Positions 1,479 to 23,892 of a DNA stretch of 64,000 nucleotides are shown here, one piece after another. The notes beneath the pieces are model-generated. The model was given only the letters and a program-made list of their open reading frames with translations. It made no database searches and had not been told where the DNA came from. The stretch lies in the NCBI GenBank assembly GCA_947034885.2, contig OX344752.2, positions 24,928,386 through 24,992,385 on the forward strand, in the 5' to 3' direction. The position numbers were made by a program, and so were the translations under genes. The DNA comes from Thuidium tamariscinum. Taxonomy: Eukaryota; Streptophyta; Bryopsida; Hypnales; Thuidiaceae. Within the stretch, counting starts at the first letter, position 1. Each line of letters starts with the position of its first letter.

Positions 1479-1505
1479 CAGGGATGACGGGACGTCCGGA
1501 CGTCC
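1479..1505 (+). repeat. Left terminal inverted repeat of the giant hAT
   Basis: It starts CAGGGATGACGGGACGTCC and contains two abutting GGACGTCC palindromes. The partner at 23866-23892 starts CAAGGTTGACG on the minus strand. The match is imperfect after the first 11 bases, as is common in hAT elements. Confidence 0.85.
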
Positions 1506-1557
1506 ACGGGACGTAGGCGCTAACCCTCGGACGTCCATTGACATTTGAAATTTTTTT

Positions 1558-1870
1558 TTACGTACGTCCAGCGGACGGATGACCGGACACTTCTGCGGAC
1601 GGCATTTTGGACGGACACAGTGCGGACGGGCACGCCGCCAGCTTGCGGACGGGCGGACAGAGTGCGGACGGACTGCGGACGTCGTGCGGACGGGCGGATG
1701 GTGTGGAGAGCGTCCGCACCCTGTCCGCCCGTCCGGAATGCCGTCCGCAGGCCGTCCGCACCGACGACGACAACTTCTGGCCGCACGATCTCCCGTCCGC
1801 TCTGAAGGCCGTCCGATCTCGATGGAGACGTCGCCCGCCGTCCGCGAGTATAAGTAGCATCGCGGACGGC
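1558..1870 (+). promoter_or_regulatory. GGACGG island 1 with GTATAAG box, upstream of the UIM-like gene
   Basis: A GC-rich block in AT-rich surroundings is built of short GCGGACGG-type units. The units read GGACGG on the plus strand up to about 1710 and then CCGTCCGC, so the island is roughly palindromic. A GTATAAG box lies at 1848-1854, 215 bases before the ATG at 2069. The same box follows islands 2, 3 and 4. It probably acts as promoter and, being near the left end, possibly as a subterminal transposase-binding array; both roles are inference. Confidence 0.7.
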
Positions 1871-2068
1871 TCATTCAGGCACAATCGTCCGCCTTCCGAA
1901 GTGGGTAATCCAGTGCCTCGAGCTCTGTGAGCCCCTTTCATTTTGGTGAGATGGTTGTGATTAAAACTTGAATACTTTCATAGTATTGAGTTTTAATTAT
2001 TATTTGCTTTTGGGCGGCCCTGAAATTCCCATCACCCTAATTCTGGACTTTGGGGTAATTTTATTACC

Positions 2069-3142
2069 ATGCCTCGCAACGATAAACCAAAATCTAGTTC
2101 CAAGGGCAAATCCCAAGACATGAATTGGGAGGATTGGGCAAACCCTTTGTGTGTAGCAGAACCTGGATGGGAGGAGGAGCCGAAGAAATCTTGGGACTGC
2201 ACAACATGCAAGAAGTACGTCAAAATGACGCACCTCTCAAAAATGTGGTCAAGAGAACGTGCTGAAAAGCAAGTTCGTCGTTGGGAGGGACAAATTTCGA
2301 CGTGCCTAAGCAAGCACTTTGTCCACCGGTATGAGGAAGTCACACGGTCAGCTGAAATACGTGACTCCAAACCGAATGTGATGAACTACTCCAACATGGC
2401 CATGGTTTGGGCAGAGATTGTGCTCCACAAAGATGTGGATTGGCGCACAATTTACGGCAAAAATGTCCACGAACTGCATCGTACTGATGCTGTTATTTAT
2501 ACGAGTTGGACTGGTATAAGTGATTGTATGCCAGAGTGGTCTAACCGAGGCCAACTTGGATATGCACCGGTTGTATTGCCGGATGCTGAGGATGATTGGT
2601 CGGAGGAGGAGGAGGAGAAGGATGCTTCAGCGCCTGTGTCATTTGGAGAGATACCTCGGCGTAGACAAGAACGCGAAGACATCCAATACGAGCAAGAAAT
2701 GCGAGATGCAATGCAACGAAGTCTCGAGGATCGTGGTCGACCACATGGGCATCATGGATCGTATCAACATGACCATAGTGTTTATGGGACCCAAAATCGC
2801 CAAAGTGATCCACACTACAGTAATGACCCTCGAGGTGGCTATGGCAACTACCAAGGTAGCCAAGGAACCACACGTGATTATGGTTCCAACCAAGGTAGTT
2901 CTCAGTACTATCCTGGATTCTCTGGAAGTAGTTCTTATAATGATACACGGTACAGGGGATCTCAGCGTGATGATTCAATTCCTTCTCCAACTTTTGGAGG
3001 ACCTTACTATGGAAATTATGGGCATGGAGGTGCATCAAGCGGATCTGGAGACATATGGGGTGGTGGACCATTTCTCGGGACTTTTGGATCTGGTTCAATT
3101 GGCCCAACTCGCAAAGATGACACCGATTCGGAATCTGAGTGA
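2069..3142 (+). CDS. hAT cargo protein A: shared CKKYVKM domain, UIM-like helix, low-complexity tail
   Basis: An uninterrupted 357-residue protein starts at ATG 2069. Residues about 45-150 (CKKYVKMTHLSKMW..., HFVHR, NYSNMAMVWAEI, VDWRT) are clearly related to residues about 55-155 of the RING protein at 13244, so the two genes share an unnamed N-terminal domain. An acidic run (EEEEEK) follows. A helix around residues 207-220 (YEQEMRDAMQRSLED) resembles a ubiquitin-interacting motif: Ala-hydrophobic-x-x-Ser followed by acidic residues. The last ~130 residues are rich in Gly, Ser, Tyr, Asn and Gln and look disordered, ending in acidic DDTDSESE. I do not know the function. The UIM call is a motif reading only. 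Island 1 and its GTATAAG box lie upstream. Confidence 0.75.
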   Translation: MPRNDKPKSSSKGKSQDMNWEDWANPLCVAEPGWEEEPKKSWDCTTCKKYVKMTHLSKMWSRERAEKQVRRWEGQISTCLSKHFVHRYEEVTRSAEIRDSKPNVMNYSNMAMVWAEIVLHKDVDWRTIYGKNVHELHRTDAVIYTSWTGISDCMPEWSNRGQLGYAPVVLPDAEDDWSEEEEEKDASAPVSFGEIPRRRQEREDIQYEQEMRDAMQRSLEDRGRPHGHHGSYQHDHSVYGTQNRQSDPHYSNDPRGGYGNYQGSQGTTRDYGSNQGSSQYYPGFSGSSSYNDTRYRGSQRDDSIPSPTFGGPYYGNYGHGGASSGSGDIWGGGPFLGTFGSGSIGPTRKDDTDSESE

Positions 3143-3422
3143 GGGTTTAGGGTTTGGAAGATTGTAGCGAAACAATGGTTGCTTTAAAATAGAAATATAG
3201 TAATTAGCAATCGATTTTTGTATATTCTTGCCATAGGATATAGATTGGCATAAGGACGATATGAGGATGTTCGCCATTTTTTGAATATAAATTTTCAGTA
3301 TGCCTATTTGTAAATTCCGATCCAATTATGTCCCATTTTCTTTGTGAAGCTTCTATGCTTCCTTCTTATTTCCAAAGCTGTGAGTTTGTGTGTTCATTAT
3401 GTTTGCCCCAAAAACAAATTAA

Positions 3423-6400
3423 CCCCTAAGTTACCAAGGCATTTTCTGACTATCAAACCACTGAAAACTGCCATTTCTGCTGCAATCACTCAAGAAACCT
3501 AAGAACACTTTTTTTCTTAGAATCTAACCGTAGGATCTTGTACTTCACTTCTCTAACAACATGTGGTAAAAATTTCATGAAGTTTGACCGTACGGATTGG
3601 AAGATATGAGCATTCAAAGTTGGAAAACAAAGTTTTTTTCAACTACGCCCTGCAATTTCAGGTGACTTTGATGGCCATTTCTGGATTTTTTTTGCAGTAC
3701 ACACCATGAGGTCAAAATTTTTTATCTTCAGCATTTGAGTTGAGAGTTCGTAAAAAAAATTTTACAATGCCAACACTTGATTTCCACATTAAAAAAAATT
3801 GTTAAGTAGAAGTAGGTCCAAAGTTGAAGAAAAAACTGAATTCTTAATAGCCCTTATATTGAATAAAAAAACCATAATCCGAACGGTGGGATTGTTCTTG
3901 AAAACAAACTTAAGCTTTAAGAAAAAAAAATGGTACAAATTTAAAATTGCACTCAAAAATAAATTCTACAAGCTGTTTAGGGTTGAAGATGCGTACATTG
4001 TCCAAAAAACAAGACTGTCCATAACTTTCTCATTTTAGTCCAAATAGGATGAATCAAAGCTTCAAATGGACACAAAAACTAAATTGGTGACAGGTCCTGC
4101 ATCAAATTGAAACGCATTAATTCCAATGGTGAAATCGTTTTCAAAAAAAAAAAAAAAAAATTATGCAATTCTCTATTCAACTATTACAATGGATGTAATG
4201 CTTCTTCTTCTAAAAAGTCTACTGTTATTGCTTGAAAAACAAGAAGATTCATAGTCGTCACAACGTCCTAGGCAATGAAAATAAATTAAGTTTCTCTACG
4301 TAGAAAAAACTGCTATTAAAAAAAAAATGTAATTTTCAAAATCATGCTTGTTTTTCTTTCTATTGCCTACATTGGGCCTTAGGGGGAATAAATTTTCTCT
4401 CAAATTACAATTGAAATAAAATTATATTACCAAAAACCCGATCAATTTTCCCATACCGAAGAAGGCCCAGAATTTGTTGCCACTAATTTAGTTGAAGTGT
4501 ACTTCTTGAACACTTCAATATCCCAAACCTTCCAAAGTCCTTGAATATATAGGACTCCTGAGACTGTAGAATTAGTACTTTAGTAGATCTTCACATTGTT
4601 TTCTTTTAACAAATAATGAACAAGTTCAAAAGGCTGATACATTTTGAACCCCTATAACCCCAATGGGTTAGGACAAAACCCAAATGTGTTATAAAATATT
4701 AACATTACGATTGTTTTGAAGTTAGTATCAAAGAAGAATTAGAAGATAATGTAAAGCACAAAAAAAAGACAGTACACATCCAATCGAAGTAAAGAAAAAA
4801 TTCCGATTATTTTTAAATAAATGTTGAATATAAACTTTCAATACCTCACCAAAATACTATTTCGATTGTCAGTTTGTCACGGTTCGAAATTCTTCTTGAT
4901 TGGTGTAAATTCTGTTTTTTATTGACTTATAAAGAAATGCAAAATATTCAACCTCTAACAGCACAAGGTATTAAGGGCCGGTTTATATTGGGCCTGGGGC
5001 CGAATGGAAAGTCGGCCGGATTTGCCTTCAATCCGGCCTTCTATCCGGCCCTAATTTTCCCATCCGGCCCTAGTTAATATAAACCCCTTGGGCTGGATTC
5101 TAGGGCGCAATTTCTAATTCATGTTCTCTTAGATTCTCTCAATGCTCAATGAAATCAATTAAAAAAAATTTTAAAAACTTAAAAATACGCGTGCTTATCT
5201 TTTCTCTACCTCTAATCTTTATAGAAAAATAAACAACAAAATTTTTGTTTGTGTTTCTCTATTTTCTTCCAATTTATTTTACTTCCAAAATAAAAACATT
5301 GTTTTTCTACAAATTTTTTACCTTCCAAATTAGTGGGAGGTGGTGCAAATTTAATTAGACCATTCAAAGATGTATAAGATGGACTATCAAGGAAAAAAAT
5401 TCATTGAAATTTCATACTATCTAGCAGACCAGCACTAGAATGGCTATAGAAAGAGGTTTTAGATGTTTGAAAGGAAGATGGAGGATTCGATGTGCTACTA
5501 ATTTACAGAATTGATTTATGCGAAAATATAAAATGACTTCAATCAAATGCCAAATTCAACTTCACTCTTCCTAGTTCCTACAATTTTTTGAAAATTGTTT
5601 GAAGGAGCTCAAATTCTTTGAAAAGTCAATAAGATATGAAATAGTAGCTTGAAAAGTAGACTAGCATATTTTAATAAAACTATTTTGAAACATAAAAATA
5701 TAATATAGTATCCAAATGTTGCGTTCTTTGGTCTATAGGAAATTCCTTTTACATTCCAACTCCCAAGTTCCCAACAATGAAGTAGAAAAATATGAACTAT
5801 TTGTAATGGTAACTTTTAGCAAGTAAACAATTAAATTTATTCAAATTGTTAAACACAATAATTTTTAAAAAAATTTAACCATATGAGGTTTATTTATTTA
5901 TTTTAAAAACTATTATGTTATTATTATGAAGATTAAAATTATTTAAATAATTGTTTGACCTCAATTTCTAATGAATCTTTTTGAAAATTTCTCATAAGAT
6001 AGTAAAACTGATTAGCTTCATGGGAATGTAAATTTTATTTCAATTGGTGACCGGGAGAAAACGTTATACCACTAAAAGCCCAAATTTTCATTCGCCGGGC
6101 AGAATTTTATTTTTTGCAAAAAGTCAGAATTTAATTTTTTTATTTAATTTTTCTAAAATAATATAATATTGCTTACATGTGAAGCTTTGATTCACTCTTT
6201 TTGGACTTACAATGAGAAAGTTATGGACAATCTTGTTTTTCGGTCAATCTAAACAATTTCTTGAAAAAATAACTTATAGGAATACATGATTCATTTAAAA
6301 ATGCAGTTTTCACTATTTTTCAAAACAAATTGTTGGACAGGGTAAGGTTTACTTTCTAAAACAATCTCACCATTGGGATTATTGTATTTAGATCCCATCT

Positions 6401-6827
6401 TAGAGTTATTAACCATTCGTTTTTTCTTTCAATCTTGGACCTACATCTACTTAACAATTGCAAAAGAATGAAAATCAAGTGTTTTTGTGTGAAATTTTTT
6501 TCCTAGACTCTCAACTCAATTTCTTGACACAAAAAATTATAGATTCAAAGTCTTCAATGCGATTTTTTAATACAAATTCCAGTCAAAGTCATCTGAAATT
6601 GCAAACCGCAGTTCAAAAAACTTGTATTTCCCACTGTGAATGCTCATATCTTCCAATCTGTACGGTCAAACTTCATGAAATTTTTACCACTTAATCTCAA
6701 TCAAGTTAAGTACAAGATCCTACGGTTAGATCCTTAAATTTTTTTATTTTTTTTTTTCTTCGATGAATGCAACAGAATTGGCAATTTCGAGTTTATTGAC
6801 AAAAAGAAGGCCTTGGTCCTTTAGGGG
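3423..6827. mobile_element. 3.4-kb CCCCTAAAG-ended inverted-repeat element, non-coding
   Basis: The left end CCCCTAAGTTACCAAGG and the right end (minus strand) CCCCTAAAGGACCAAGG are inverted repeats flanked by TAA (3420-3422 and 6828-6830). The similarity continues inward for hundreds of bases: the stretch around 3527-3620 (CCGTAGGATCTTGTAC, GGTAAAAATTTCATGAAG, GAAGATATGAGCATTC) reappears inverted around 6630-6730. No coding ORF is present. Related copies occur at 17137, 43079 and 61110. The TAA/TTAA duplications allow PIF/Harbinger- or piggyBac-like mobilisation; the family is not decided here. It is inserted in the giant hAT, so it is younger. Confidence 0.7.
4980..5085. repeat. 106-bp inverted-repeat element within the 3.4-kb element
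   Basis: The ends GGTTTATATT and, on the other strand, GGTTTATATT are followed on both sides by a near-identical GGGCCGRATGG. The interior is GC-rich (repeated CCGGCC) in AT-rich DNA. It is probably a small MITE; no target duplication was established. Confidence 0.5.
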
Positions 6828-6830
6828 TAA

Positions 6831-7322
6831 GAAGGATTTCCCAATTAATGTACAATTTCATTTTAAAAATCTAATTGACATAGTAATAGAGTTATCGATA
6901 TGGATGTAATCATGGGTCATACTTTAAAATTTTAAACTAGAAGTGACACATGTAACCCTAAGATCTTCTAGTGCACCAATTGGGAGATGTACACAAAATT
7001 CCAGAAAAATTAGTAAGTCCCATAGGGCCTAATGTTCATCTTACAAATCAAAATGGAATTATTCAAAACTTTCCAAGTAGATCAAAATCTAAAGAACCAA
7101 TACTTCAAGGCTTCAAGGGTCAACTCATCATGACAGGTTCCAAAAGACCAAAACATGCAAAAACAAATGTGAGATAGAAGTGAATTGCACATATATTTGG
7201 GAAAATTTGTGATGCACACATCTTTTTAAGATATAGTTGAGGACTTGAAGTACATAGGGATATATTTCCTTGCCGGTACATCTATTCAATACTTATGTAC
7301 TTCTACGTAAAACACTAAAATA
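6831..7322. other. Non-coding AT-rich spacer in the giant hAT
   Basis: It lies between the 3.4-kb TIR element and the 3' end of the kinase-like gene. I see no coding region or clear repeat; its right part probably includes the 3' UTR of the kinase-like gene. Confidence 0.4.
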
Positions 7323-8810
7323 CTAATATGAATGGCGGAAATGTTCATCTGGGATAGGCCAATTGTAACCTGGGCCAGTAAATCGTTGGACGATTTTAGT
7401 CAAACTTACTGCCCTCTCTACATCTGTAGAACACAGAAGTTCCAAATAATTATGAAACACAAGTCCTAACTCATGGTGGCTCCACTTCGTATGTCCTTTG
7501 TTATCACGATGGAGCGCCGCGTACTCCTTGGACATGCATTGCTTGTTGATCTGTTGAGCTAGTTTACCAACCGCAAACTCTTCTGATTTACGTGATAAAT
7601 GTGGAATCGTTTCCACATCTGCATCTTTCTTATGCACATACACAATAGACGGATCCACCCACCATCTTCTTTGCAAAGCTTCTTTCTTCTCACTTTCAGA
7701 TGTGAAAGTGTACAAGGATTTGGGTGGATCACTATGTACGGTAGTCATGCCCCAATCGCAAACCCCAATATATACACGTGACTCATCATCCGGAAAGTGA
7801 AACATGATGTTGTTCGGCGAGAGATCGTTGTGTAGATGCCCCGCTTGATGCACCGCATGCAAAATGTGCACCAATGCCCATGCGAGCTCCGTTCGTTTCC
7901 TTCTCCATTGAGCTAGAAAGAATGCTCGATTCACCTCTTCGGGTGATGGCTTGGAATAAGCCAATCGAATGTGAATGTCATCTGGATAGTCCCTATCCAT
8001 GTTCAACATTTGCCTCAACGTTCCACCATTCCACCAATACATGTACCCTTCATTGTTTGTTCCATGGACTGCTGCGAATCGTATAACTCCGTCATGTGGA
8101 ATCCGCACTGCCATTGACTCGTTCTGGTGTTCCAACTTTGCGAGTTGAGGCCTCAAGCGTTGTTGATGCGATACCTTCGCTGCAAACTCCCAAGAGGCAG
8201 GTATCTCAGCACATCCTTCAATTCGCACCCTCTGTATTGTTGCATAGCCCCCCTTCAAGACCGTACTGTCTTGTGGAATCACCCTTGCGGTAATGGGCAA
8301 TGCCACAAGATGCCGCCGCCCACGTTGCAATTCTAGAGCTCCTTCATCCGTGTTCCACCACCCCAATGATCCTTGTCCCTTCCGTTTCCTAGCATTCTTT
8401 GTAAACGGAGCACATCGTTGTACAAACAAGTCCGCCTTCAAAATGACTTCTTCAAATGTGGGATCATCCACCCGATGTTCCTTCCCGTACTTTGTCAATA
8501 CCACTTTGGCATTCCACAATGAATCTTGCACCCTGTTCTGCAGAAACCTTTGGAAGCCTCTCTTCTCCGTTTCATGAATCCATCCTGGAACAAAGAGAGC
8601 ATCCGTCATCCTCTTCGTCATATCCGATTTGAACTTCTCAATGCACTCCTCTTCGTATCGGATGTACTTGGTATCAAGGGATGCAGTGCTCTCCTCCTCA
8701 TAAAACTGCACTATGATACGGATGACATATGCCTTGCAATCATCCGAAGGCATGTCCTCAATGTCTAGCGCTACCGGTTTTGCCTTTGCTACCTTCTTTC
8801 CTTTCGGCAT
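7323..8810 (-). CDS. hAT cargo protein B: protein-kinase-like protein
   Basis: A 495-residue protein runs uninterrupted from ATG 8810 to TAG 7323; the longer reading from 8819 begins with TTG and is not needed. The C-terminal two thirds is a kinase fold. It has a glycine-loop-like LKGGYATIQRVRI, a beta-3 lysine in WEFAAKVS (Lys ~212), the catalytic loop HLHNDLSPNNIMF (Asp ~329 and following Asn) and CDWGMTT (Asp ~352, DWG instead of DFG). All core catalytic residues look present, so activity is plausible. The first ~190 residues are helical, charged and unrecognised. Compared with plant receptor kinases it has no signal peptide, ectodomain or membrane segment. It stands opposite in direction to the other intact genes and has its own island and GTATAAG box upstream. 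Substrate unknown. Confidence 0.8.
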   Translation of the reverse strand: MPKGKKVAKAKPVALDIEDMPSDDCKAYVIRIIVQFYEEESTASLDTKYIRYEEECIEKFKSDMTKRMTDALFVPGWIHETEKRGFQRFLQNRVQDSLWNAKVVLTKYGKEHRVDDPTFEEVILKADLFVQRCAPFTKNARKRKGQGSLGWWNTDEGALELQRGRRHLVALPITARVIPQDSTVLKGGYATIQRVRIEGCAEIPASWEFAAKVSHQQRLRPQLAKLEHQNESMAVRIPHDGVIRFAAVHGTNNEGYMYWWNGGTLRQMLNMDRDYPDDIHIRLAYSKPSPEEVNRAFFLAQWRRKRTELAWALVHILHAVHQAGHLHNDLSPNNIMFHFPDDESRVYIGVCDWGMTTVHSDPPKSLYTFTSESEKKEALQRRWWVDPSIVYVHKKDADVETIPHLSRKSEEFAVGKLAQQINKQCMSKEYAALHRDNKGHTKWSHHELGLVFHNYLELLCSTDVERAVSLTKIVQRFTGPGYNWPIPDEHFRHSY

Positions 8811-9000
8811 CGTGATCAAATCAATGATAAGAGTTTAAAAACTCTTGATTTCAAGCACAATGCACAAAAGATATACAAAAAAAGGGCAACAAGTTGGCCC
8901 TAAATCCCACTCCTAACTTCCCTTAGAAAGGAGCCAATGGAGGATTAACCACCAAGCTCTCCGCTCTCTCTTGTGAAACACAAGAGGGAAGATAAGAATG

Positions 9001-9465
9001 CGGTTGCGGACGGGCCGTCCGCCTATCTTATACCTTGCGGACGGACCGACCCGTCCGCAACCTCGTCGGGGCCGTCCGATCCGTCCGCCTCGCCTCGTCA
9101 GGGCCGTCCGATCGCGCTGGCCGTCTGATCGGGGCCGTCCGCGTCGCCTCGTTAGGGCCGTCCGATCGCACTGGCCGTCCGACCGGGGCCGTCCGACCGG
9201 GGCCGTCCGCCTCGTCGTCATCGGGCCCGTCCGATCGCGCTGGCCGTCCGATCGGGGCCGTCCGCCTCGTCGTCATCGGGGCCGTCCGATCGCGCTGGCC
9301 GTCCGACCGGGGCCGTCCGCCTCGTCGTCCTCGGGGCCGTCCTTGGGGCCGTCCGATCGCAGTGGCCGTCCGATCGCGGCCATCCGCCTCACCTCGTCGG
9401 AGTTGTCCGCCTCGACGTCCTCGGGGCCGTCCGATCACTGTGGCCGTCCGATCGGACGGCCCCGG
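9001..9465 (-). promoter_or_regulatory. GGACGG island 2 with GTATAAG box, upstream of the kinase-like gene
   Basis: A dense array of CCGTCCGATCG and CCGTCCGCCTCGTCG units on plus reads GGACGG on the coding strand of the kinase-like gene. The GTATAAG box is at 9027-9033 on the minus strand, 217 bases upstream of the ATG at 8810. Units are near-periodic and long open frames across it are repeat artefacts. Confidence 0.7.
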
Positions 9466-10837: not shown

Positions 10838-11100
10838 CTACAAGCCACGACCTTTCATGCCACACCATTTCACCCAAACTTGTTCAAAGTCAATGGCTTC
10901 TATAGGAATTCTTGCCACTGCAACTCGAATTTCTGCTTCCAAAGTCTCCAATACTAAACTAGAATGTAAATTAGACTCAATATAATTTTGAGTAGAAAAT
11001 GCCCTCTCACAAGAATCTGTGCTACCAGGAATTACAAGAATACTTTGCCACAGCTTGGACATGTGAGGCTACCTTCCAATATAGTCCAAATTGGAAGAGT
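10838..11100 (-). pseudogene. Fragment of a different hAT transposase (C-terminal dimerisation domain)
   Basis: On the minus strand 11062-10838 reads LWQSILVIPGSTDSCERAFS, then YIESNLHSSLVLETLEAEIR. This is the hAT dimerisation motif (IP.S...CER.FS, then L...L...L). Upstream sequence (YWKVASHVQAVAKYS) is in another frame, so there is a frame change, and no other domain is seen. It is not part of the 18547 transposase, whose corresponding stretch is SSSSCERNWSSYSFVHNKS. It is a relic of an older hAT within the giant one. Confidence 0.7.
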
Positions 11101-11146
11101 ACACTATAATTGCTTGGTGCATTTTCAAACCACCACATGAAATTTG

Positions 11147-11185: not shown

Positions 11186-11246
11186 CTCCTGTGGAGTCTT
11201 GGAACTGAATTTTACCACCTCGAGAAACGTCCAAGAAATGTGCCAC

Positions 11247-13243: not shown

Positions 13244-16200
13244 ATGGCAAGTGAGGGTGAAGAACGTGGTGGGGGAATAAATCCAGCGGGTGGTGACAAT
13301 CGAAGGCATAAGCCAAAGGGCGCCAGTCACGAATTACATTATGAGATTTTGGATGACCCAAACATCAAAGCGGAAAACGGATGGGAGGATGAGGCAGCAC
13401 CGTATTGGTCTTCAAAAATGTGCAAAAAATACGTGAAAATGTATCACATTGACAAGTTGTGGCCTAGGGAGGCCCATGAACTTCATACACGTGGATTTTT
13501 TTGCAAACCCACCAACTGCAACAACGCGCATTTTGTGCATCGCGCTTTGGAGGTTTGGCGGGCCCTCTTTGGAAAGAAAGCAATGAGTAAAGGGTACATA
13601 AACTACAGCTTGGCTTCTATGGTGTATGCAGAATTGATATTGGAACGCAAGGTGGATTGGAGCACGTATCCGACGACAGCACAAACTCCATTTGTACAAG
13701 AAATGAATAGAAAAGACATTCCCGATTTGTACAATCCTCAAGGAGGGCCAAGTGAGGTACCGAAGCCCAAAAGAGTATTAAAAAATACTAGAAAAATTGA
13801 AACAAAAGTCTCAGAGGTACCAAGTGATGGACCACGCTTGCAGCCTAGTGAGCCTACACACACTTTGAGGACAATGGAAGATACTGAAGGTGAAGGTGTG
13901 GAAGGAGAAGTGTTTGCAACTCCTCCTACAGATTTAATATGCACACCAAATATTACGACGGTGGCTGAACAGGGCATTCTTGAAGATATTCAGAGTGGGA
14001 AGAAAGAAGGTGGGCCCCCATTGGCTCGATGTGAAGGTACTGAAGATACGGAAGAGGTAGCCGAGGGAGAAGTTGCTGAGGCCAATGCTACAATTCATGA
14101 TATTATTGACAGTAATGCTCTCGACATCTTCGGGCTAAACCCTAAACCATCATGTTTGAGCAAACCAAGCGTTTCCAGCCCCGTACAGAGCGCCAGAATT
14201 GAAGCAGCTACCGCCAAAAAAAATGGAGAGGCGTCTCAGGGAAAAGGAAAAGAAGTAGTCATCGATGTTGAAGTCATCCCCAGCCAATACCCGCATTTGT
14301 CCACATTGAACACATCACAATTGGAGGCTCTTTCGAACATGCCGAATGCCGCAGAGCTGGAACGGGTGTTGGAGGGTTCAGTTATATTTGAGTCTCACCT
14401 TCTTGACCTAAACCGGTCAAAAGAGACAAGTGAGGCCACCACAAGCATTGCAACCCAAGGTGAAGCCAATCGTCACAGTTGGGCAACTATTGCTGAAATC
14501 CAAGTGACATTGGCAACTCTAGGTCGATTTGTAACTGAAGTATCTCCGCAACTTACAGAGGTGGCACAGGAGTTTGCAAAATTGTCACCTGAATTGTTGG
14601 CAAGTGCATTGACGTTTCATAAGTTCACCGAGTCCTTGTTACCGTTTTTGGACGAGCGCTTCGAGGACAAGCGCCAATTGGTGGCCTTCTTGGAAGAGAA
14701 TACAAAACTGCTGGCCTTGCAGAAAGAATTGAAGGGAACCTCAAACGAAATGGTAGAGCAATTGAGGACTTCTAAGAATACGGCACAATTTCAAGTTGCA
14801 ACTGTGAAATGGCAAAGTGATCGTATTAAAGATTTGGAGTCAGAAGTTGAGAAATTGAAGGACGTGATCAAAAAAGGTGAGTTCACCGAAGCTAAGGAAG
14901 GAGATGGAGCTAAGCATTTTAGTGGCGATGAGAAAAAAAAGATACATGAAGTGACACCTCTAATGGCCATTGAAAATCGCAAAACTTCATTTCAAGATGC
15001 TCCCATTCAAACAGAATGCCATGAAGTTGATGAATTGAAGCAGAAAGTGGAGAAGCTCACCGAAGAAAACGCGTCTTTGCAGAGTGAATTGCAACGACTA
15101 GAGCATGTTCTTCGATTGGATGACTCCCTTCCAAAGAGTACCAAAGACGATCGATGGTTGGCATGGATTCAAAAACTAGAAGACAAACCAACTGTAGTTT
15201 CGCGAGCAATGAAAGGGCTTCTCAAATTGGCTGGAAAATCGGATGAGCAACAGCAAATAGTAGAATCTTCACTGATGAGTATGAGGAAGAGGTTTGAAAC
15301 ACATCCGAAGGGGACTACAGAAATCACATGTTGGGGAGACATGGACGCGATGTTCGAGCGGTTGAACCACACAAAGAAAGAAGAATCACCCCACATCAAT
15401 TGGGCCTTGGAGGTAGAAGAAGGTTGGGTTTCGTACAACACTCTTTCGGCACACATCAAGGACAATGAGAAGACAGTGGTGCATGCTTCTCACACTTCTC
15501 GAGGGATCTTGGAAGGTAAATGCAGCATTTGTCAAGGTCCATTTGGTCCCGAGGGAGCCCTAACTATGGGCCAATGTCGTCACACTTTCCATGTGACGTG
15601 CATAATCAAAGCCTCACTCGTTCGCTCGGTTTGTCCGGAGTGTCGTTCTCCTTTGAGTTCAAGGTTTTACGAAATGGTTGGGACCTTGGAATGTATGCCC
15701 CCTAGTCACGAATACAATCGATGGACCCTTCCACTTGATCAAGCCCCGTTTTACTTCCAAAATTATATGCATTGGGGAAAACCTCTCACGTGGGATTCAT
15801 TGGAAGAGAAGCATGGGTTGTACGAAGAGGCAATGGTGCCGCTAGATCCCTTTGTGTGGATGACCCAAGATCGACACGTGGAATTGCGAGCAAGGGGTAT
15901 TGAAGATCCCGAAGCTCGCGAATTGTTTTGTCGCGGCATGGGTGGGCATTGGAGCATAGACCATCACAAGTTCTTTCGATTTCCAGAGAAGGAAGTGAAC
16001 AAAGGACCAGATGGCAATTGGGTGGATGTGGAGCATACAAAAGAGTTGCAAGAGCGATACGGGGCGTACAATCACACATTGATAGGGAGGGCCCTCTTCC
16101 TGTCAAAGTTGGAAGAAGCTGCGCAGGTTCGAGCTCTTGTAGAGTTAGACGAGGATTCCAACTCCTCACAGTCAATTGTGGAAGTGGCAGGGGCTTTTGA

Positions 16201-16561
16201 CAGGAGGATGAGCGAGGCCATAATGTCTTTTCGAAAATTTTTAGTGGGAGGAGATGGCCCCGGCCCGCACTGGTTTTCCGTTGGAGATGTCAATGTAACA
16301 CTGAACTTAATGGTAGCTTCAGTAGATGATGCCTTGGAAGCATTAAAGGCACATGAAGTGGATCTGCCTCAGAAGCGAAAGAATAAGCGGAGGGTGGAAG
16401 ATGAGGATGACTTCTCTCCAGAAACAAAAAGACAATTCAGTGCTGTTGATATGGCAGTGGCTTCGAGAGGGTCCACTGGTGACGGAAGCCCCGGTCCTCA
16501 CACTCGCCGTACAAGTGCAAGACTTAGGGATAGAGAGGGTCCATCTCGTGTTACACCGTAG
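13244..16561 (+). CDS. hAT cargo protein C: large coiled-coil RING-H2 protein
   Basis: An uninterrupted 1105-residue protein begins at ATG 13244; the frame is open further upstream but only from a TTG at 13124. Residues ~55-155 repeat the N-terminal domain of protein A (MCKKYVKMYHIDKLW, HFVHR, NYSLASMVYAELI, VDWST). A long acidic, low-complexity stretch follows, then coiled coils at about 480-550 and 590-635. A RING-H2 finger starts at Cys ~760: C-x2-C-x13-C-x-H-x2-H-x2-C-x10-C-x2-C. This pattern marks E3 ubiquitin ligases. The C-terminus has a basic QKRKNKRR cluster (~1042), a likely nuclear signal. It probably recruits ubiquitin machinery in the nucleus; the target is unknown and could be the transposase or a host factor. 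Upstream are island 3 and a GTATAAG box. Confidence 0.8.
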   Translation: MASEGEERGGGINPAGGDNRRHKPKGASHELHYEILDDPNIKAENGWEDEAAPYWSSKMCKKYVKMYHIDKLWPREAHELHTRGFFCKPTNCNNAHFVHRALEVWRALFGKKAMSKGYINYSLASMVYAELILERKVDWSTYPTTAQTPFVQEMNRKDIPDLYNPQGGPSEVPKPKRVLKNTRKIETKVSEVPSDGPRLQPSEPTHTLRTMEDTEGEGVEGEVFATPPTDLICTPNITTVAEQGILEDIQSGKKEGGPPLARCEGTEDTEEVAEGEVAEANATIHDIIDSNALDIFGLNPKPSCLSKPSVSSPVQSARIEAATAKKNGEASQGKGKEVVIDVEVIPSQYPHLSTLNTSQLEALSNMPNAAELERVLEGSVIFESHLLDLNRSKETSEATTSIATQGEANRHSWATIAEIQVTLATLGRFVTEVSPQLTEVAQEFAKLSPELLASALTFHKFTESLLPFLDERFEDKRQLVAFLEENTKLLALQKELKGTSNEMVEQLRTSKNTAQFQVATVKWQSDRIKDLESEVEKLKDVIKKGEFTEAKEGDGAKHFSGDEKKKIHEVTPLMAIENRKTSFQDAPIQTECHEVDELKQKVEKLTEENASLQSELQRLEHVLRLDDSLPKSTKDDRWLAWIQKLEDKPTVVSRAMKGLLKLAGKSDEQQQIVESSLMSMRKRFETHPKGTTEITCWGDMDAMFERLNHTKKEESPHINWALEVEEGWVSYNTLSAHIKDNEKTVVHASHTSRGILEGKCSICQGPFGPEGALTMGQCRHTFHVTCIIKASLVRSVCPECRSPLSSRFYEMVGTLECMPPSHEYNRWTLPLDQAPFYFQNYMHWGKPLTWDSLEEKHGLYEEAMVPLDPFVWMTQDRHVELRARGIEDPEARELFCRGMGGHWSIDHHKFFRFPEKEVNKGPDGNWVDVEHTKELQERYGAYNHTLIGRALFLSKLEEAAQVRALVELDEDSNSSQSIVEVAGAFDRRMSEAIMSFRKFLVGGDGPGPHWFSVGDVNVTLNLMVASVDDALEALKAHEVDLPQKRKNKRRVEDEDDFSPETKRQFSAVDMAVASRGSTGDGSPGPHTRRTSARLRDREGPSRVTP

Positions 16562-17136
16562 GGTATTCGTGAAAAGATTTAGTAGAAGTGGATCTTTTAT
16601 TAGCTGTTAGATATTATATTACGGAGGACTTGTTTTAACTTTGAATCTTTCGGAGATTCATTGCAAATCATTCATAGTAGCTATAGTATGGTTTGTATTT
16701 TTTTTATCAATACAAAAATAAGTGTAAAATACAGAGTTGCAAATGTGTATATATATTCAAGAGTTTTATTTTAGTTGAAGTCTGACATGTACCATCATAT
16801 GATCAATTGATCATATATGAAGATGTTTTTGTTTGATGATGCAAAAGGCTAATTTTAATTCTAGAAGAGAATGGGATATGTGAATGAAGGTAGGAGCCAT
16901 GCAGGAAAAAAAATAAAATTACTATGTTCACTGTAGAACTTCATAAATTCATTTTTGATCATTCCATATTTTTTTCCAAATGCTTTTTTAATTACCATGA
17001 TCTTGAAGAGTTTAAAGAAACCAAGTTCAATTTAGTCTACAAGAAAGTCTTTTGTGATTTGTTGTCTCTAAAACAAAGTTTAAGATGTTTGAAGTCCAGT
17101 TGTAAATTTGTAATAACAATTTAAGTATAATTGAAA
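16562..17136. other. 3' flank of the RING gene, AT-rich, non-coding
   Basis: It contains the likely 3' UTR and otherwise nothing recognisable. Confidence 0.4.
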
Positions 17137-18020
17137 GCCCTTAAAGACCCAACTGGGTTTTTTGGAACATAGGAATATCGAACAACTCATTATGAATGGT
17201 TGTTTTTTTGGGTTTTTCTTTCAGATTTTCACAGAAGTTGTATCCAATGTGGTGGAAATTTCATGAAGTTTGACCCTAATATGAGCATTCAAAGTTGGAA
17301 AACAATGTTTTTTTGAACTTGAGTTTGCAAATGCAAATGACTTTGTCCTCCATTTCTGTAATTTTTTTGCACTACAGACCTTGAATTTAAACTTTTTTCT
17401 ATTGAGAAATTGAGGTAACAACTCAGGAAAACAAATTCAGCAACAAAAGTGTGTTTTTTCATTCTTTAAAAAATTGTCAAGTACATGTAGGTCCAAGATT
17501 GAAAGAGAAAGTAAATTGCAAAGATCTCATACATTGAATTGAAACACTATAATCTGAATGGTGAAATTGTTTTGGCAAGCAAAAACAACCTTGCCCAACA
17601 ATTTTTTATTGAAAATTGTGGAAATTGCATTCACAAGTGAATCCTAAATTTTTTTAAAAAAAAACATGCTTACATTGTCTAAAAAACAAGATTGTTCATG
17701 ACTTTCACATCACTAATCCAAATTGAATGAATCAAAGCTTCACTTGTAGTCTTGTAGACAAAAATAAAATCAATTAGAAAAAAAAATTATTTTTTTAATT
17801 CTGAAGTTTTTGATGATTTTTTTCTTCCCGGCGACATGAAAATGATATTGAAGATGGCATAACTTTTGCTCACGGTCACCAATTGGAAAAGAATAATATT
17901 CCCACAGAGCTAATCAAGTTTTCTATCTGAGTTATGTGAAAATTTCTAGCGAATTCGTTCAAAATTGAAGTGACAAGTAACTGCCCAAATTCTTGAAGTC
18001 CCCCAAGTGCACTCTTGGTC
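17137..18020. mobile_element. Probable copy of the CCCCTAAAG inverted-repeat family
   Basis: The interior (17240-17560) is closely related to 3560-3870: TTTCATGAAGTTTGACC, ATGAGCATTCAAAGTTGG, GTAGGTCCAAGATTGAA. The ends CCCTTAAAGACC (17137) and, on the other strand, CCCAAAGGACCAAGAG (~18027) are diverged. No target duplication is clear. It abuts island 4, directly upstream of the transposase gene. Confidence 0.55.
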
Positions 18021-18029
18021 CTTTGGGAT

Positions 18030-18289
18030 GTAGGCCGTCCGATGTAGGCCGTCCGCCTCGTGGGGCCGTCCGATCGGGGTCCGTCCGCCTCGTGGTAGCT
18101 GTCCGCTAGACCCGTCCGCCTCTTGGTGGGCATCCGAGGGGGGTCCGTCCGCGACCGCTCGCCGTCCGCCGTCCGCCGATCGGAGTACCCTGTCGGGCCG
18201 TCCGCAGTTCCGTCCGCAGTGTCAATCGGGATTGTCTCCCGTCCGTTGCAACAGTCACGAAGAGCAACCTTAGAACTAAGGAGTATAAG
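18030..18289 (+). promoter_or_regulatory. GGACGG island 4 with GTATAAG box, upstream of the hAT transposase
   Basis: The repeat units read GTCCGCC/GCCGTCCG on the coding strand here, opposite to islands 2 and 3 relative to their genes. GTATAAG lies at 18283-18289, 258 bases before the ATG at 18547. A short upstream ORF starts at ATG 18389. Confidence 0.65.
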
Positions 18290-18546: not shown

Positions 18547-21500
18547 ATGAGCAAGGATTGGTCTTCTTGGTATGGCGCCCCTTCAGTTGGGAAGGTACAA
18601 TGCAAAGCCTGCAACCTAGTGTTTGCCAAAAAAACATGCCGTATGTTTAGCCATCTTGGTTATGAAGGTGCATCGGGGTCTCGTGATCGAGGAATCAGTC
18701 TATGTCCACGACTCACATCCCAAGTTCAGAAGCTATTTCGTCAATGCAAGGGGATAATCCCACGAAGAGGTGAAAACGAGAATTTGGGTGGAAACGGGAC
18801 ATTGGAGGCCACGGTTGAAAATGATGCAGGAAATGAGAGACCTTCGACATCGCCAATACGTCTTACACCGGAAGATTCTTGTACAATACCAAAAGAGACC
18901 CTAAACCGCGTGTCTTCTGGAGCACTTGCCAGTACTCAAGCATCAGATGAAGGAGACACAGGGGTAGGATCAACTAGTAGGCCTTTGGTGCAGCGGCGGA
19001 TAGGAGATGGCTTCGAAGAAGCGAGTAGACGGAAATTGCATGCAGTGTGGGCTAATTTTTTTAATGCTGTGAACATACCATTTTCGGTGGCACGGAATGC
19101 AGCATTTAAAGAAGCGGTGAAGAAAACGGCTGAGTTTCACAAACCCTATACCCCACCGTCATACCATGAATTACGACATAAGTTGCTTGATCAAGCGAAG
19201 GCAGACATTAAAGTGAATATGAAGAAGCGAACAGAAGACAGCATCAGGAAGTTTGGAGCAACATTGTCTATTGATGGGTGGACTTCGGCGGCAAATCGTC
19301 CTTTGGTAAATGCAATGCTCGTGTCTTCTGCGGGCGAGCAATTCCTAGGATCGGAGGATACAACAGGAAAAGAGAAGAATGCCGCCTATTTAGCCTCTAT
19401 ATTGGAAAAATTCATAGAAGAAGTGGGTCCTCACAAAATAGTACAAATAAGCGCAGATAATGCGCCTGTGAATGAAGCCGCATTCAACTTGATATCTCCG
19501 AAGTACCCTCATATATTTTACCAGGGTTGCGTGGTCCATGCCCTGAATTTGTTATTGAAAGATTGGGGCAACGAACGGTGGATTGAGGAGGTCGTGGGCA
19601 ATGCCCGTAACGTAGTGAAATTCTTCAAAAAGAGGCACATGCCTCTTGCAATATTTCGAAGGTACTCACCGGACTGCATGTTGTTGATGGCGGTGGAAAC
19701 TCGGTTTGCTTCCAATTACAACATGGTGGACCGTATGTTGAAGGTGAAGGGGAAGTTACAGCAAACGGTGACGGACCCACAGTGGGAACAATACGTGAAA
19801 ACATTGGGGCGGAATACTCATCCTCGCAATGTGAGCCGAAGGGTGAAGGACATCATTTTGAACGAGCATTTTTGGCGGCGTTGTCAAAATTTCAAGGATT
19901 TATTGGCTCCGGTGGTACATGGTCTACGCGATTTGGATGCAAAAAGGCCATGTATGGGGAAGGTGCTACATATCATGAAGAAAATACAGAAGCACGTTTT
20001 GTCGTTGGACGAAGCACCTTTTAGTTTGTCCTTGGATTTAGCCATCCATCTACAAGAAGCCTTTCATGAACGGCGAGCGATGGTAGAGACAGATCTACAT
20101 TATGCAGGGGCTTTGTTGAATCCCTATCTTCTTCACGACAAAGAGCTTGCTGATGATCAAGATGCAATGGATGCATGCAAGCGTGTTTTAACGAAAGTAT
20201 GTACCACAGAACAGCATGCCGCTGTTGTGAAGGAATTTGTAGCCTTTCGACATAGGGAACCCCCTTTCCACAAAATGTTGGACCCCAACGAACAACAATT
20301 GTCAGCACATGCTTGGTGGGATTTTGAGGGCGCGTGCGGGAAGTTCATTGCTCCAATTGCCAAGCGTATTTTGGCCCAATCGGTATCTTCCTCTTCGTGT
20401 GAACGAAATTGGAGTAGCTATTCATTTGTTCACAACAAATCTCGAAACAAGTTGACGCCACAGAGAGCACAAGATTTGGTGTATGTGTACACCAATACTA
20501 AAGTGCTTTCCGCATCTCAAGAAAATGATGAGAAGAAGTGGTACGAAGAGCAATTCGAGAGTGTGGATATGGAAGAGTCCATGTCAGAGGATGAAGGTGG
20601 TGAAGATCATGGCGATGGTGAAGAGAGAGATCCCCTATTTGATGATGAATATGATGCGGAATACAATGTGACTAGTTTGGTTGATGAACCATCCCAAAAC
20701 CCTCATCATAATGATGAAGACTTTCAAGACAATCCATTGGATGTCTTCAATTTTGAAGAGGACGAGGAGAATTACGACTATGATGAGGGTGTCCCATCAG
20801 AAGCTAAATTTGTGGATGGAACTACAGTATTGAGTAGTGAGAATGTTCGAGCACATAGCTGGGACACTAATGTGGCAATGGAAGAGAGAAATGGGGCAAC
20901 GATGAACATCGGTGGGACTTCGACCCCGGATGAATTGATTCCAATTTCTAAATGTCCATCGCCAGTAGGGGTCGAAGCAAAAGAACTTGGAAAACAGAAC
21001 GACTTGGGAGACAGTGGAGTGAAGGTGGACAAAAATGTTGGTGATATAAGTGTTGCATTCGTTGAAGTATTGGCGTGTAAGAAAAGTTGTCTTGCAAGTA
21101 CCGAGAAAGGTAAAGCACGGGGAGTAGCAACATATGTAGATGCAGGTATGATGGAGTCTGGGAGCCCCATGTCATTTGATGTTGGCAAAGGCAAGAAGCC
21201 CCTCGTACGAGATCCAACCCTACCCCCACGTAGCGGTCCTCCACGCATACTATTCAAAAACGGCAATGCAAGTTTAGGTGGTCTCGGTAGTTTATGCAAC
21301 GGAAATAAGGATCCAGAAGAAGATGAGACATTGGAGTCTATGTTTGGTCGACCTTGGGTGAAGTCATCGGATCGATCACTCTCTTTTGGCGCAAATGAGA
21401 TCATCATTCCAAGCGGATCAAAAGCAAGACAACCAGCAATGAAAGAGTCCAAGAAAGCTAGAACTAAAAGAATACTGGAGGCCTTTTCAAAATCACCATC

Positions 21501-21816
21501 GAAGCGGCAAAGTCTAGGTCGAACCCCCCTTGATGTATGTGAACCTTTCTCACAAAGCAAAGTGAAACCGGTTAATGGTCTTGAACAAGGGATTGGGAAG
21601 TCTACACTAGGAGGTAGAGACATGGTGAAAGAAAAAAAGAAGGGTAGACGCAAGAAATCGCTTGCATCAAAGCAAGTATCCGGAAGAAAAGAGCGAGCTC
21701 TACAGTCTTCATCCGATAGTATGGATAGCACAAGTAATGAAGAAGACTCGGAATGGGATTCAAGAGGTCATAGTAGTGGAGCTGAGGTGAGAGGAGACGT
21801 TGATTACAAGCCTTAG
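18547..21816 (+). CDS. hAT-family transposase of the giant element
   Basis: An uninterrupted 1089-residue protein starts at ATG 18547 (the frame opens earlier at a TTG, 18493). Order: BED-like zinc finger (KVQCKACNLVF...HLGYEG, about 17-60); DUF659/RNase-H part with Asp ~243 in LSIDGWTSA and Asp ~304 in ISADNAPVN; QGCVVHALNLLLKDWG; and the hAT dimerisation region with HAWWDFEG (~588) and SSCERNWSSYSF (Glu ~618). These are the DDE-type residues of hAT enzymes, so it should cut and paste with an 8-bp duplication, as seen at the element's ends. An extra ~430-residue tail is acidic, then Lys/Arg-rich (KEKKKGRRKKS), and is unusual for the family. No stops or shifts: the copy looks active. It is convergent with the SUVH fragment. 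Confidence 0.92.
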   Translation: MSKDWSSWYGAPSVGKVQCKACNLVFAKKTCRMFSHLGYEGASGSRDRGISLCPRLTSQVQKLFRQCKGIIPRRGENENLGGNGTLEATVENDAGNERPSTSPIRLTPEDSCTIPKETLNRVSSGALASTQASDEGDTGVGSTSRPLVQRRIGDGFEEASRRKLHAVWANFFNAVNIPFSVARNAAFKEAVKKTAEFHKPYTPPSYHELRHKLLDQAKADIKVNMKKRTEDSIRKFGATLSIDGWTSAANRPLVNAMLVSSAGEQFLGSEDTTGKEKNAAYLASILEKFIEEVGPHKIVQISADNAPVNEAAFNLISPKYPHIFYQGCVVHALNLLLKDWGNERWIEEVVGNARNVVKFFKKRHMPLAIFRRYSPDCMLLMAVETRFASNYNMVDRMLKVKGKLQQTVTDPQWEQYVKTLGRNTHPRNVSRRVKDIILNEHFWRRCQNFKDLLAPVVHGLRDLDAKRPCMGKVLHIMKKIQKHVLSLDEAPFSLSLDLAIHLQEAFHERRAMVETDLHYAGALLNPYLLHDKELADDQDAMDACKRVLTKVCTTEQHAAVVKEFVAFRHREPPFHKMLDPNEQQLSAHAWWDFEGACGKFIAPIAKRILAQSVSSSSCERNWSSYSFVHNKSRNKLTPQRAQDLVYVYTNTKVLSASQENDEKKWYEEQFESVDMEESMSEDEGGEDHGDGEERDPLFDDEYDAEYNVTSLVDEPSQNPHHNDEDFQDNPLDVFNFEEDEENYDYDEGVPSEAKFVDGTTVLSSENVRAHSWDTNVAMEERNGATMNIGGTSTPDELIPISKCPSPVGVEAKELGKQNDLGDSGVKVDKNVGDISVAFVEVLACKKSCLASTEKGKARGVATYVDAGMMESGSPMSFDVGKGKKPLVRDPTLPPRSGPPRILFKNGNASLGGLGSLCNGNKDPEEDETLESMFGRPWVKSSDRSLSFGANEIIIPSGSKARQPAMKESKKARTKRILEAFSKSPSKRQSLGRTPLDVCEPFSQSKVKPVNGLEQGIGKSTLGGRDMVKEKKKGRRKKSLASKQVSGRKERALQSSSDSMDSTSNEEDSEWDSRGHSSGAEVRGDVDYKP

Positions 21817-22014
21817 AAATTCAAGGAATGTAGACTTAGGTGTTTAGATATTCATGGTACATGGAGCTTGTAATGGAAATGGTTTGTTTGAACCTTTGAA
21901 AGTAATACAAGTTTTCATGCGCATATTAGAAACGTCACTATGATTTATTGATTTTTGATTTCTTGGTTTCATGGTATTTAAAAATAATGAACAAAAATTA
22001 AATTGTGACAATGT

Positions 22015-22869
22015 TTACACCTTGTGACCATCTCGTGCCACCTCAAGGTTGTAACGCTTCACCTTGTACAATCCATCATAGGAATACATTTTGTTCCATC
22101 CAGCGTCCACATCATGGCCCCTAATCAAACGAACAACTTCCCCACGTTTGTAGGAGTTAATAAGCGCTTTGTTCCCTTTCTTGGGCTTTGGATCCCCTTA
22201 AAACCGCTTGTCACCTTTGTAATCGTTTCCACCCTCGCTAGTGTATTTGACTGTCTCCCCATGGTCATCATCATCTCGGTAACCACCTGAGATCACCACG
22301 CTGCAAGCCACCTTCTCCCCTCGATCTTCAACCCATGCAATCCCTCCTTGCACTTGCCGGTGCAACTCAATGGCAAACATTTCTGACCAAAATTCAAATT
22401 GATCATCGACTACGATTCCGGGAACGTGACCAAACTTTTGAAACTCATTAGATTTTCCTTCTTCATTCATCTACTTCATTGCCTGCAAGTCAGGCCGATT
22501 ACCAAGCAACTGACCCCTCGTCTTGAGTTTTTGATAATGTTGTAAGATCCGGGAGTACAGAGCACGCTGCTGCAAAAATTGATCCCTGACACTGACCTGG
22601 TCAAAATCTCTTGGTAGTTCTCCATCTACCTCATAAGCTCCCGCTCCATTAGGGTCTGAAATTGCCTCTTCCTCTACAGTTCCCGCTGGTTGTGGCCTTG
22701 TGGGGTTCTTCGTGACTTTCCTCGGCAATCTCACACAACCCTCAGGAAAATCTCGCGTGGCAATAGGACCGTCGCCATCTATATGGAATAAGGCTAGACA
22801 GACTGAAGCAATGGATTGAACTGGCTTGGCTTGGCTTGGCTTGGCTGCTTTGTACTCTGTGTTTTGCAA
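22015..22869 (-). pseudogene. Captured SUVH-type fragment with SRA-YDG domain
   Basis: On the minus strand this reads as the middle of a plant SUVH histone H3K9 methyltransferase. It has ATRDFPEGC (family RDFPPGCG), a helical QQRALYSRILQHYQKL..., NRPDLQAMK, then an SRA domain: FGHVPGIVVDDQFEFWSEMF, VISGGYRDDDD, YTSEGGNDYKGDKRF and NKMYSYDGLYKVKRYNLE (22060-22080). SRA domains bind methylated cytosine. Two in-frame stops interrupt it (TAG at 22471-22473, TAA at 22198-22200); the family sequence continues in the same frame after each. No start Met is seen upstream, the frame ends at 22015 soon after YDG, and the pre-SET, SET and post-SET parts are absent. It was probably captured from the host as cDNA or genomic DNA; the (TTGGC)n run at 22820-22845 lies inside the reading. 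Confidence 0.85.
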
Positions 22870-23600
22870 TGGAATTCCATTTGTTTAAAAAAATAAAAAA
22901 ATAAAAAAAATTTACGACAATAATTAGGCTTCAAGGAAAACATAACCCAACACATTTTTTGGAAAACTAACATTTGATGAAAAAGATACAAGCCACTGAA
23001 GTTGAAGCCATCTCAATGCAGTTTGGTGAATTCAAATTGAACTTGTGAACTTTGATTGACTCCCAAGTAATCAGTGTAACTTAGATTGTTCTAAAAATTT
23101 TATCACACAAACTAGAAGAGAGTGTGCAAATTTTCCGACAAGTTTTGTTGAATTTGGAAATTGGGTACAAAAGTTATAGCACTTTCAATTGGACTTAAAA
23201 GTATATGAAGACAATGTTGGTTTTAGGGCTTAATTTTAGTAAAGGTCACATTTAGGAATCTGAAGTATTACTTTTTGAGCGCTTCATTGCTTGTTTTTGG
23301 TCAGGCAATGGTTTTTTCCACACTGCACTTGTGTGGGTTTTGCAACTTGCAAGACCTAGAATCACAAATACATACCTATGCTAGAATTCTTTGAAAACAT
23401 AAGTAATTTATAAATGATTGGAAATATATGAAACCATTTGGTTTAGATTTCGCATCAATGGTTCTTGAAATGAAAAATAAGGGGAAATATTTTTGGGAAC
23501 CCTAAACCCACTCTAAACCGAACAGCCCTTAAAGGGTCGCTTTTCAAGCCATCTACCTTACATGTTATTTGAAAACCCTAAATCCAGAAATACAAGTTGT
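22870..23600. other. AT-rich non-coding stretch near the right end of the giant hAT
   Basis: No coding region. Short CCCTAAACC-like words occur at 23500-23585. Confidence 0.4.
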
Positions 23601-23605
23601 CGACC

Positions 23606-23850
23606 GCCCACTCATCCGTCCTCCCGTCCGCAGTGCCGTCCACCCGTCCGCACTTTGGTTTGCCCGTCCGCTGGCCGACCGCCCGTCTACCCGTCCGCAG
23701 TGCCGTCCGCGCGTCCGCACTTTGGTCCGCCCGTCCGCTGGCCGACCGCCCGTCTGCCCGTCCGCAGTTTCGTTCGCTTCTCCGTCCGCCGGTCGCCGAG
23801 GACAACGTCCACTACGTCCACTAAGTCCGGACGTCCGGACGTCCGGATTT
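23606..23850. promoter_or_regulatory. GGACGG island 5, right subterminal
   Basis: CCGTCCGC units on plus, including an internal direct repeat of about 65 bases (GTCCGCACTTTGG then GTCCGCTGGCCGACC, twice), run into GGACGTCC palindromes at the right end. There is no GTATAAG box, and the only candidate gene it could serve is the broken SUVH fragment on minus. It mirrors island 1 near the left end, as expected of subterminal transposase-binding arrays in hAT elements. Confidence 0.65.
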
Positions 23851-23865
23851 TGGACGTAATTTTGG

Positions 23866-23892
23866 CCTGGACGTACCGATTCGTCAACCTTG
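23866..23892 (-). repeat. Right terminal inverted repeat of the giant hAT
   Basis: The minus-strand reading is CAAGGTTGACGAATCGG followed by TACGTCC, with GGACGTCC palindromes just inside (about 23827-23845). It is followed by the duplicated GGTGTGAG. Confidence 0.85.

Follow-up and report, generated by a model that had tools for sequence, protein, structure and literature searches.

A candidate giant hAT transposon in a moss genome, with one short motif arrayed at its ends and before its genes

Elements of the hAT superfamily are usually small and hold one gene. The locus studied here, a span of 22,414 bp (1479-23892) with four intact genes in the moss Thuidium tamariscinum, raises the question whether a hAT transposon reaches such a size by gathering passengers or by having a gene set of its own. 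All positions refer to the window, that is, the whole stretch of 64,000 nucleotides of contig OX344752.2 that was analyzed. The reading that we favor, and consider reasonably probable, is that of a single giant, autonomous-looking hAT element that jumped into a CACTA transposase gene, within an intron, and has a co-regulated accessory gene set of its own. The feature that carries this reading, an array of a 7-bp motif common to the promoters and the ends of the element, is new here; it is the most interesting part of the locus and was missing from the initial annotation.

Ends and insertion site of the element

The initial annotation proposed a giant hAT transposon with both ends visible and an exact 8-bp duplication, and our analysis bears this out. 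The span is bounded by the target-site duplication (TSD) GGTGTGAG, exact on both sides, and by short imperfect ends of hAT type. The window contains 97 CA[A/G]GG starts and 86 CC[C/T]TG ends, and no other pair of them spaced by more than 200 bp has identical flanking 8-mers. The terminal inverted repeats (TIRs), CAGGGATGACG on the left and CAAGGTTGACG on the minus strand on the right, agree at 9 of 11 bases, and the pair is unique in the window, in which exact matches to the terminal 11-mer CARGGWTGACG are confined to the two ends of the element. The inner ends are also mutually inverted (1621-1694 against 23766-23690, 77.5% alike), the similarity being built partly from the motif CGGACGG itself. 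Together with a transposase that includes the hAT dimerization region, the 8-bp TSD and the short imperfect TIRs identify the element as a hAT. Next to the TIRs lie copies of a palindrome, GGACGTCC; all five copies inside the element are within 64 bp of an end, and two further copies were found outside it.

Removing the element and one copy of the TSD restores an intron of 240 bp with its donor at 1376 and its acceptor ending at 24037. The flanking exons, 38-1375 and from 24038 onward, are both in phase 0 around the intron and encode a CACTA tnp2 transposase (PF02992, E 2.6e-54 for the open reading frame [ORF] of the first exon). The claim that a host intron closes on removal therefore stands as to the closing, but the intron is that of a transposon and not of a host gene proper. 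The interrupted CACTA element is itself broken, as its first exon holds an in-frame stop at 1253-1255. A second, related CACTA gene, on the minus strand, is divided into exons at the same point (50581-49265 and 49080-48730); 184 bp separate them, and no insertion is present. This gene is 43% and 39% identical to the interrupted one over the two exons and represents the uninterrupted state, at the protein level only. The CACTA element to which it belongs (47098-50590, minus strand) has Transposase_21 in two ORFs and DUF4216 in a third, and a 270-bp palindrome (51102-51371, 86%) lies about 0.5 kb upstream of this minus-strand gene (50590-47098).

One motif at the ends and before the genes

The motif CGGACGG, or its complement CCGTCCG, has 65 copies in the window, and all 65 fall in five arrays of the element, with 13, 23, 10, 11, and 8 copies (Table 1). 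In 300 order-1 simulations, which keep the dinucleotide content, 3.0 copies were expected within the arrays and the largest number seen was 10; for the element as a whole, 200 order-2 simulations gave an expectation of 1.3 and a maximum of 4. Both the motif and the array borders were picked after viewing the sequence, and these figures are therefore descriptive and not blind tests. Neighbors of the motif with one mismatch number 43 within the arrays, compared with the 65 exact copies.

Each internal array stops 124-277 bp short of the ATG of an intact gene, and array 1 stops 149 bp short of one; no array starts within 1.4 kb downstream of any intact gene's stop. In all four intact genes the order is array, TATAAG, ATG, with the TATAAG located in or just past the gene-side edge of the array and, in three of the four, with one or two motif copies on its ATG side. 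The TATAAG is in each case the only one within 1,000 bp upstream of the gene, and the element as a whole has seven per strand. Two signals appear to be present, GGACGTCC for the ends and CGGACGG common to ends and promoters, since the palindrome is confined within the element to its ends and absent from the internal arrays.

Table 1. Features of the element and its borders, in window coordinates
Feature	Position	Strand	Remark
TSD GGTGTGAG, left copy	1471-1478	no strand	exact match to 23893-23900
Left TIR CAGGGATGACG	1479-1489	+	9/11 bases agree with right end
Array 1	1479-1920	none	13 copies, mixed orientation; left subterminal region and upstream of ORF1
Terminal palindromes GGACGTCC, left	1490-1536	none	starts 1490, 1498, 1529; ≤64 bp from end
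TATAAG before ORF1	1849-1854	+	220 bp ahead of ATG
ORF1	2069-3142	+	357 aa; N-terminal domain common with RING protein
Protein-kinase-like gene	7323-8810	-	495 aa; Pkinase match below cut-off
Array 2	9000-9480	none	23 copies; upstream of kinase-like gene
TATAAG before kinase-like gene	9027-9032	-	222 bp ahead of ATG
Array 3	12770-13120	none	10 copies; upstream of RING gene
TATAAG before RING gene	13079-13084	+	165 bp ahead of ATG
RING protein gene	13244-16561	+	1105 aa; RING-H2 at residues ~759-801
Array 4	18020-18270	none	11 copies; upstream of transposase gene
TATAAG before transposase gene	18284-18289	+	263 bp ahead of ATG
hAT transposase gene	18547-21816	+	1089 aa; DUF659 E 2.2e-35, Dimer_Tnp_hAT E 3.2e-8
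Broken SRA-domain (methyl-DNA-reader) gene	22015-22884	-	in-frame stops 22473-22471, 22200-22198
Array 5	23600-23892	none	8 copies; right subterminal region; ~0.7 kb upstream of broken SRA frame's open start
Terminal palindromes GGACGTCC, right	23829-23844	none	starts 23829, 23837; ≤64 bp from end
Right TIR CAAGGTTGACG	23882-23892	-	sequence on minus strand; 9/11 bases agree with left end
TSD GGTGTGAG, right copy	23893-23900	no strand	exact match to 1471-1478
Diverged dispersed repeat	3422-4068, 5958-6828, 17247-17971; also 60.0-61.6 kb, 63.5-64.0 kb (scrambled)		within the element, 3' of the ORF1, kinase-like, and RING genes

The transposase and the accessory genes

The four intact ORFs, those of ORF1, the kinase-like protein, the RING protein, and the transposase, are open over 357-1105 codons, and with the broken SRA gene they agree with the initial count of at least four intact long ORFs plus a captured fragment. 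Their G+C content by codon position is 0.38-0.56, compared with 0.31 in the intergenic DNA. The transposase matches Dimer_Tnp_hAT with 33.7 bits (Pfam cut-off 21.4) and DUF659 with 122 bits (cut-off 34.7); no solved structure matched it at E 0.01. It contains the motifs IDGWTS, SADNAPVN, and SCERNWS, located by motif position, which we take to be candidates for the catalytic D, D, and E motifs, and a cysteine/histidine pattern at the N terminus, without a Pfam match, that we presume to be BED-like. Beyond the dimerization region it extends for a further ~440 aa, in which Pfam gave no match at E 0.1.

ORF1 and the RING protein have an N-terminal domain in common (39% identity over 124 aa, E 2e-23), for which a profile search of PDB gave nothing convincing (best E 0.62). 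Over 149 codons of this domain, the proportion of synonymous differences (pS) is 0.725, close to saturation and so giving no usable dN/dS ratio, and that of nonsynonymous differences (pN) is 0.467; the values hint at constraint. The rest of ORF1 has by eye a low-complexity look, and a zf-C3HC/NuBaID match below the Pfam cut-off (E 0.0063) was found in ORF1 alone. In the RING protein, zf-RING_11 (E 9.8e-8) and zf-RING_2 (E 2.3e-7) are both above the Pfam cut-off, and the protein matches RING finger protein 24 in PDB (E 1.8e-6); its middle part, with weak matches below cut-off, is probably a coiled coil.

The kinase-like protein has its best PDB kinase match at E 0.006 and contains, by motif position, a glycine-loop-like motif, AAK, HND-x4-N, and DWG, which we read as the glycine-rich loop and further motifs of a kinase. 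NCBIfam gave only matches far below cut-off, which for this protein were to the kinase domains of lanthionine synthetases. Structure prediction was of low confidence, with a mean predicted local distance difference test (pLDDT) score of 30.8 for the kinase-like protein and 35.0 for the domain shared by ORF1 and the RING protein. For the broken gene, SAD_SRA was matched by two of the three pieces (E 8.2e-20 and 8.1e-12), and the closest PDB entries to the first piece were SUVH9 (1.1e-13) and then SUVH5 (2e-13). The frame has no ATG before its first stop other than one beside that stop, and an ATG directly after it; none of the three scanned pieces showed a SET part. With its two in-frame stops, it is not an intact SRA-domain gene of the SUVH/UHRF1 type. 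By its SUVH-like SRA piece, its CACTA genes, and its AAACCCT-like repeats, the window would come from a land plant.

The initial annotation spoke of cargo genes. That the element has multiple genes is supported, but some of the set at least should probably not be called cargo, because the four intact genes share the array, TATAAG, and ATG layout with the motif of the subterminal regions and because ORF1 and the RING protein have a domain in common. Judged from its sequence, the set looks more like one owned and co-regulated by the element than like random captures. Cutting by the transposase would take place at the CARGGWTGACG ends, which would then be joined into 8-bp staggered sites, as the TSD and the family suggest. 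Beside it the element would have an accessory set of ORF1, the RING protein, the kinase-like protein, and perhaps formerly an SRA protein. One DNA-binding factor encoded by the element, either the N terminus of the transposase or the domain shared by ORF1 and the RING protein, may bind the arrays, such that ends and promoters would respond to one protein while the GGACGTCC palindromes would mark the true ends. If this is true, a 22-kb hAT with four genes tied to its ends by one 7-bp motif is a self-contained regulon on a cut-and-paste element.

Purpose of the arrays, alternatives, and known systems

What the arrays are for can be approached through known systems. Plant Ac/Ds elements resemble ours in their 8-bp TSD, short TIRs, DUF659 and hAT dimerization regions, and subterminal repeats of a short motif. 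They differ in size (22.4 kb here and 4.6 kb for Ac), and our element has three further intact genes, arrays at internal promoters, and the C-terminal extension of its transposase. The VANDAL21 element of Arabidopsis has dense, same-orientation arrays of YAGTATTAY in its noncoding DNA that are bound by VANC21 (PMC5735166), and VANC proteins bring about a loss of methylation (PMC10398659). Dense arrays of a motif in noncoding DNA, specific here to the element as far as the 64-kb window goes, are common to both cases, but VANDAL21 is Mutator-like and the transposase here is that of a hAT, and the likeness would be one of working, namely anti-silencing. Having motif arrays in front of each of its four intact genes as well as at its ends, the element combines the layouts of Ac and VANDAL21.

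We then considered CpG, TpG, and CpA as observed/expected ratios with the motif masked, taking 3143-7322, 9481-12769, and 16562-18019 as intergenic stretches of the element. The arrays have a CpG ratio of 1.18 (1.08 with half-sites also masked) and a TpG ratio of 0.75 (0.73), compared with 0.43 and 1.25 in the three intergenic stretches, 0.73 and 1.29 in the four intact genes, and 0.64 and 1.15 in the right flank. Between TATAAG and ATG, the CpG ratio is 0.73, no higher than in the genes. With CpG up and TpG down, much of the signature of methylated-CpG decay seen around them is missing from the arrays.

A more weakly inferred, anti-silencing reading draws on this pattern, on the analogy to VANDAL and VANC, and on the nature of the RING, kinase-like, and SRA proteins. 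We put forward tentatively, as something possible but not likely, that the purpose of the system is to keep the promoters of the element free of DNA methylation, with the products of the RING, kinase-like, and SRA genes acting on host silencing proteins. Somewhat more doubtful is the full form of this idea, a hAT-own regulon independent of the VANDALs in which the factor would bind the CGGACGG arrays of all promoters and of both ends and protect them from methylation, and host silencing proteins would be disabled by the kinase, the RING ligase, and, in the past, the SRA protein. If the arrays are indeed protected from methylation, they provide a second, unrelated case beside VANDAL/VANC of sequence-specific anti-silencing by a plant transposon, and the evolution of such systems becomes testable in another superfamily.

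Several points weigh against the favored reading or its extension to silencing. A single copy of the element lies behind it, and the binding of the motif by an element protein is something that we infer. Relative to its gene, array 4 is oriented opposite to most copies of arrays 2 and 3, and array 1 is mixed. For the broken SRA gene, the 1,000 bp examined upstream contain no TATAAG; this gene is therefore left out of the count of genes with array and TATAAG, and may never have belonged to the set. The kinase-like protein is below the Pfam cut-offs both for Pkinase (E 6.9e-6, 26.1 bits against 31.7) and for APH (21.6 bits against 23.2). The CpA ratio of the arrays, 1.03-1.07, is barely under the intergenic 1.16 (also 1.20), and their high CpG could stem from the youth of the arrays or from a high G+C content, the comparison being made without G+C matching. 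Finally, the dispersed repeats, the decayed hAT fragment, and the copy of RING codons described below lie inside the element, and part of its length is therefore accretion.

The alternative that survives best overlaps the favored reading and is about as tentative as the proposed purpose. It sees the arrays as binding sites of the transposase alone, comparable to the AAACGG repeats of Ac, with the internal arrays serving titration or autoregulation and having no role in silencing. Cooperative binding of Ac transposase to subterminal AAACGG repeats is described in PMC3260210, and CGGACGG is subterminal here too; yet the three internal arrays account for 44 of the 65 copies, the ends are marked by a palindrome of their own, and the CpGs of the arrays are kept.

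We regard as unlikely an ordinary hAT swollen by accretion, in which the kinase, RING, and SRA genes are captures from the host and, with nested repeats, passengers without a role. Accretion did happen, as seen from the broken SRA gene, the dispersed repeats, a decayed hAT dimerization fragment at ~10976-11083 on the minus strand (E 0.00064; 19.9 bits against a cut-off of 21.4), and 45 bp at 11147-11191 that repeat RING codons 631-645 (14 of 15 residues, E 0.003). However, four intact genes captured separately would hardly all come with one and the same array and TATAAG before them; the domain common to ORF1 and the RING protein is likewise unexpected, and the four long frames stay open. Within 10976-11191, the hAT fragment adjoins the RING-codon copy, as filler from gap repair might leave. 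A repeat in the 3' flanks of the ORF1, kinase-like, and RING genes, ~70% alike and in the same orientation relative to each, was tried as a part of the system and rejected; as it is also found scrambled at 60-64 kb, outside the element, we treat it as a dispersed genome repeat.

Least probable, and by some way, is a composite of several one-gene hAT relatives with array-bearing ends, fused by nested insertion or loss of ends and with the arrays as relics of old ends: both true ends have the motif in subterminal position, such that internal arrays could have been ends once, and arrays 2 and 4 have a 67-bp stretch in common (82%), but the internal arrays lack GGACGTCC, do not match the terminal 11-mer in full, and keep to the start-codon side of intact genes at the distances given above. 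Internal transposon ends found no support in the window, where the 11-mer with up to two mismatches has 38 occurrences against 35.3 expected, a chance level.

Large transposons with several genes are known from other groups. Enlarged En/Spm (CACTA) elements of the red alga Chondrus crispus are 16-20 kb long with four or five ORFs in place of one or two (PMC6431247); they are CACTA and not hAT elements, and the portion of that text available makes no mention of a shared promoter array. ToxhAT of fungal wheat pathogens is ~14 kb and carries ToxA beyond the genes for movement, but it is fungal, and shared promoter arrays are not mentioned in the material on it that was available. Starships are moved by a tyrosine recombinase captain. 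They are large, contain several genes, and are described from Pezizomycotina, whereas our element is bounded by TIRs and an 8-bp TSD and encodes a transposase of hAT type. The initially suggested likeness to the cargo-bearing giants of fungi thus holds in concept, but not in machinery: no tyrosine-recombinase domain was found in the four ORFs (Pfam, E 0.1) or in the six frames of 3143-7322 and 9500-12770 (E 0.01), the stretches 16562-18020 and 21817-23600 being outside the six-frame scan.

Searches for relatives confirmed none in viral contigs for the transposase, RING, kinase-like, and ORF1 proteins (14, 2, 3, and 0 pattern matches, respectively) and none for the transposase in genome contigs (41 pattern matches) or plasmids. 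They say little about plants, because scans with single proteins find close relatives only and the collections were of viruses, prokaryotes, and plasmids. No Rfam family reached threshold in 1400-24000. Among titles and the starts of abstracts, with few subscription papers, we found no description of a giant or gene-carrying plant hAT, which is weak evidence of novelty, and the main texts of the reviews PMC6431247 and PMC13317346 yielded no instance of the term hAT.

Two minor observations concern repeats. A short telomere-like CTAAACC array lies inside the element at 12562-12623, and a large palindrome at 37778-38744, 967 bp long and 94% alike to its own reverse complement, resembles a fold-back element.

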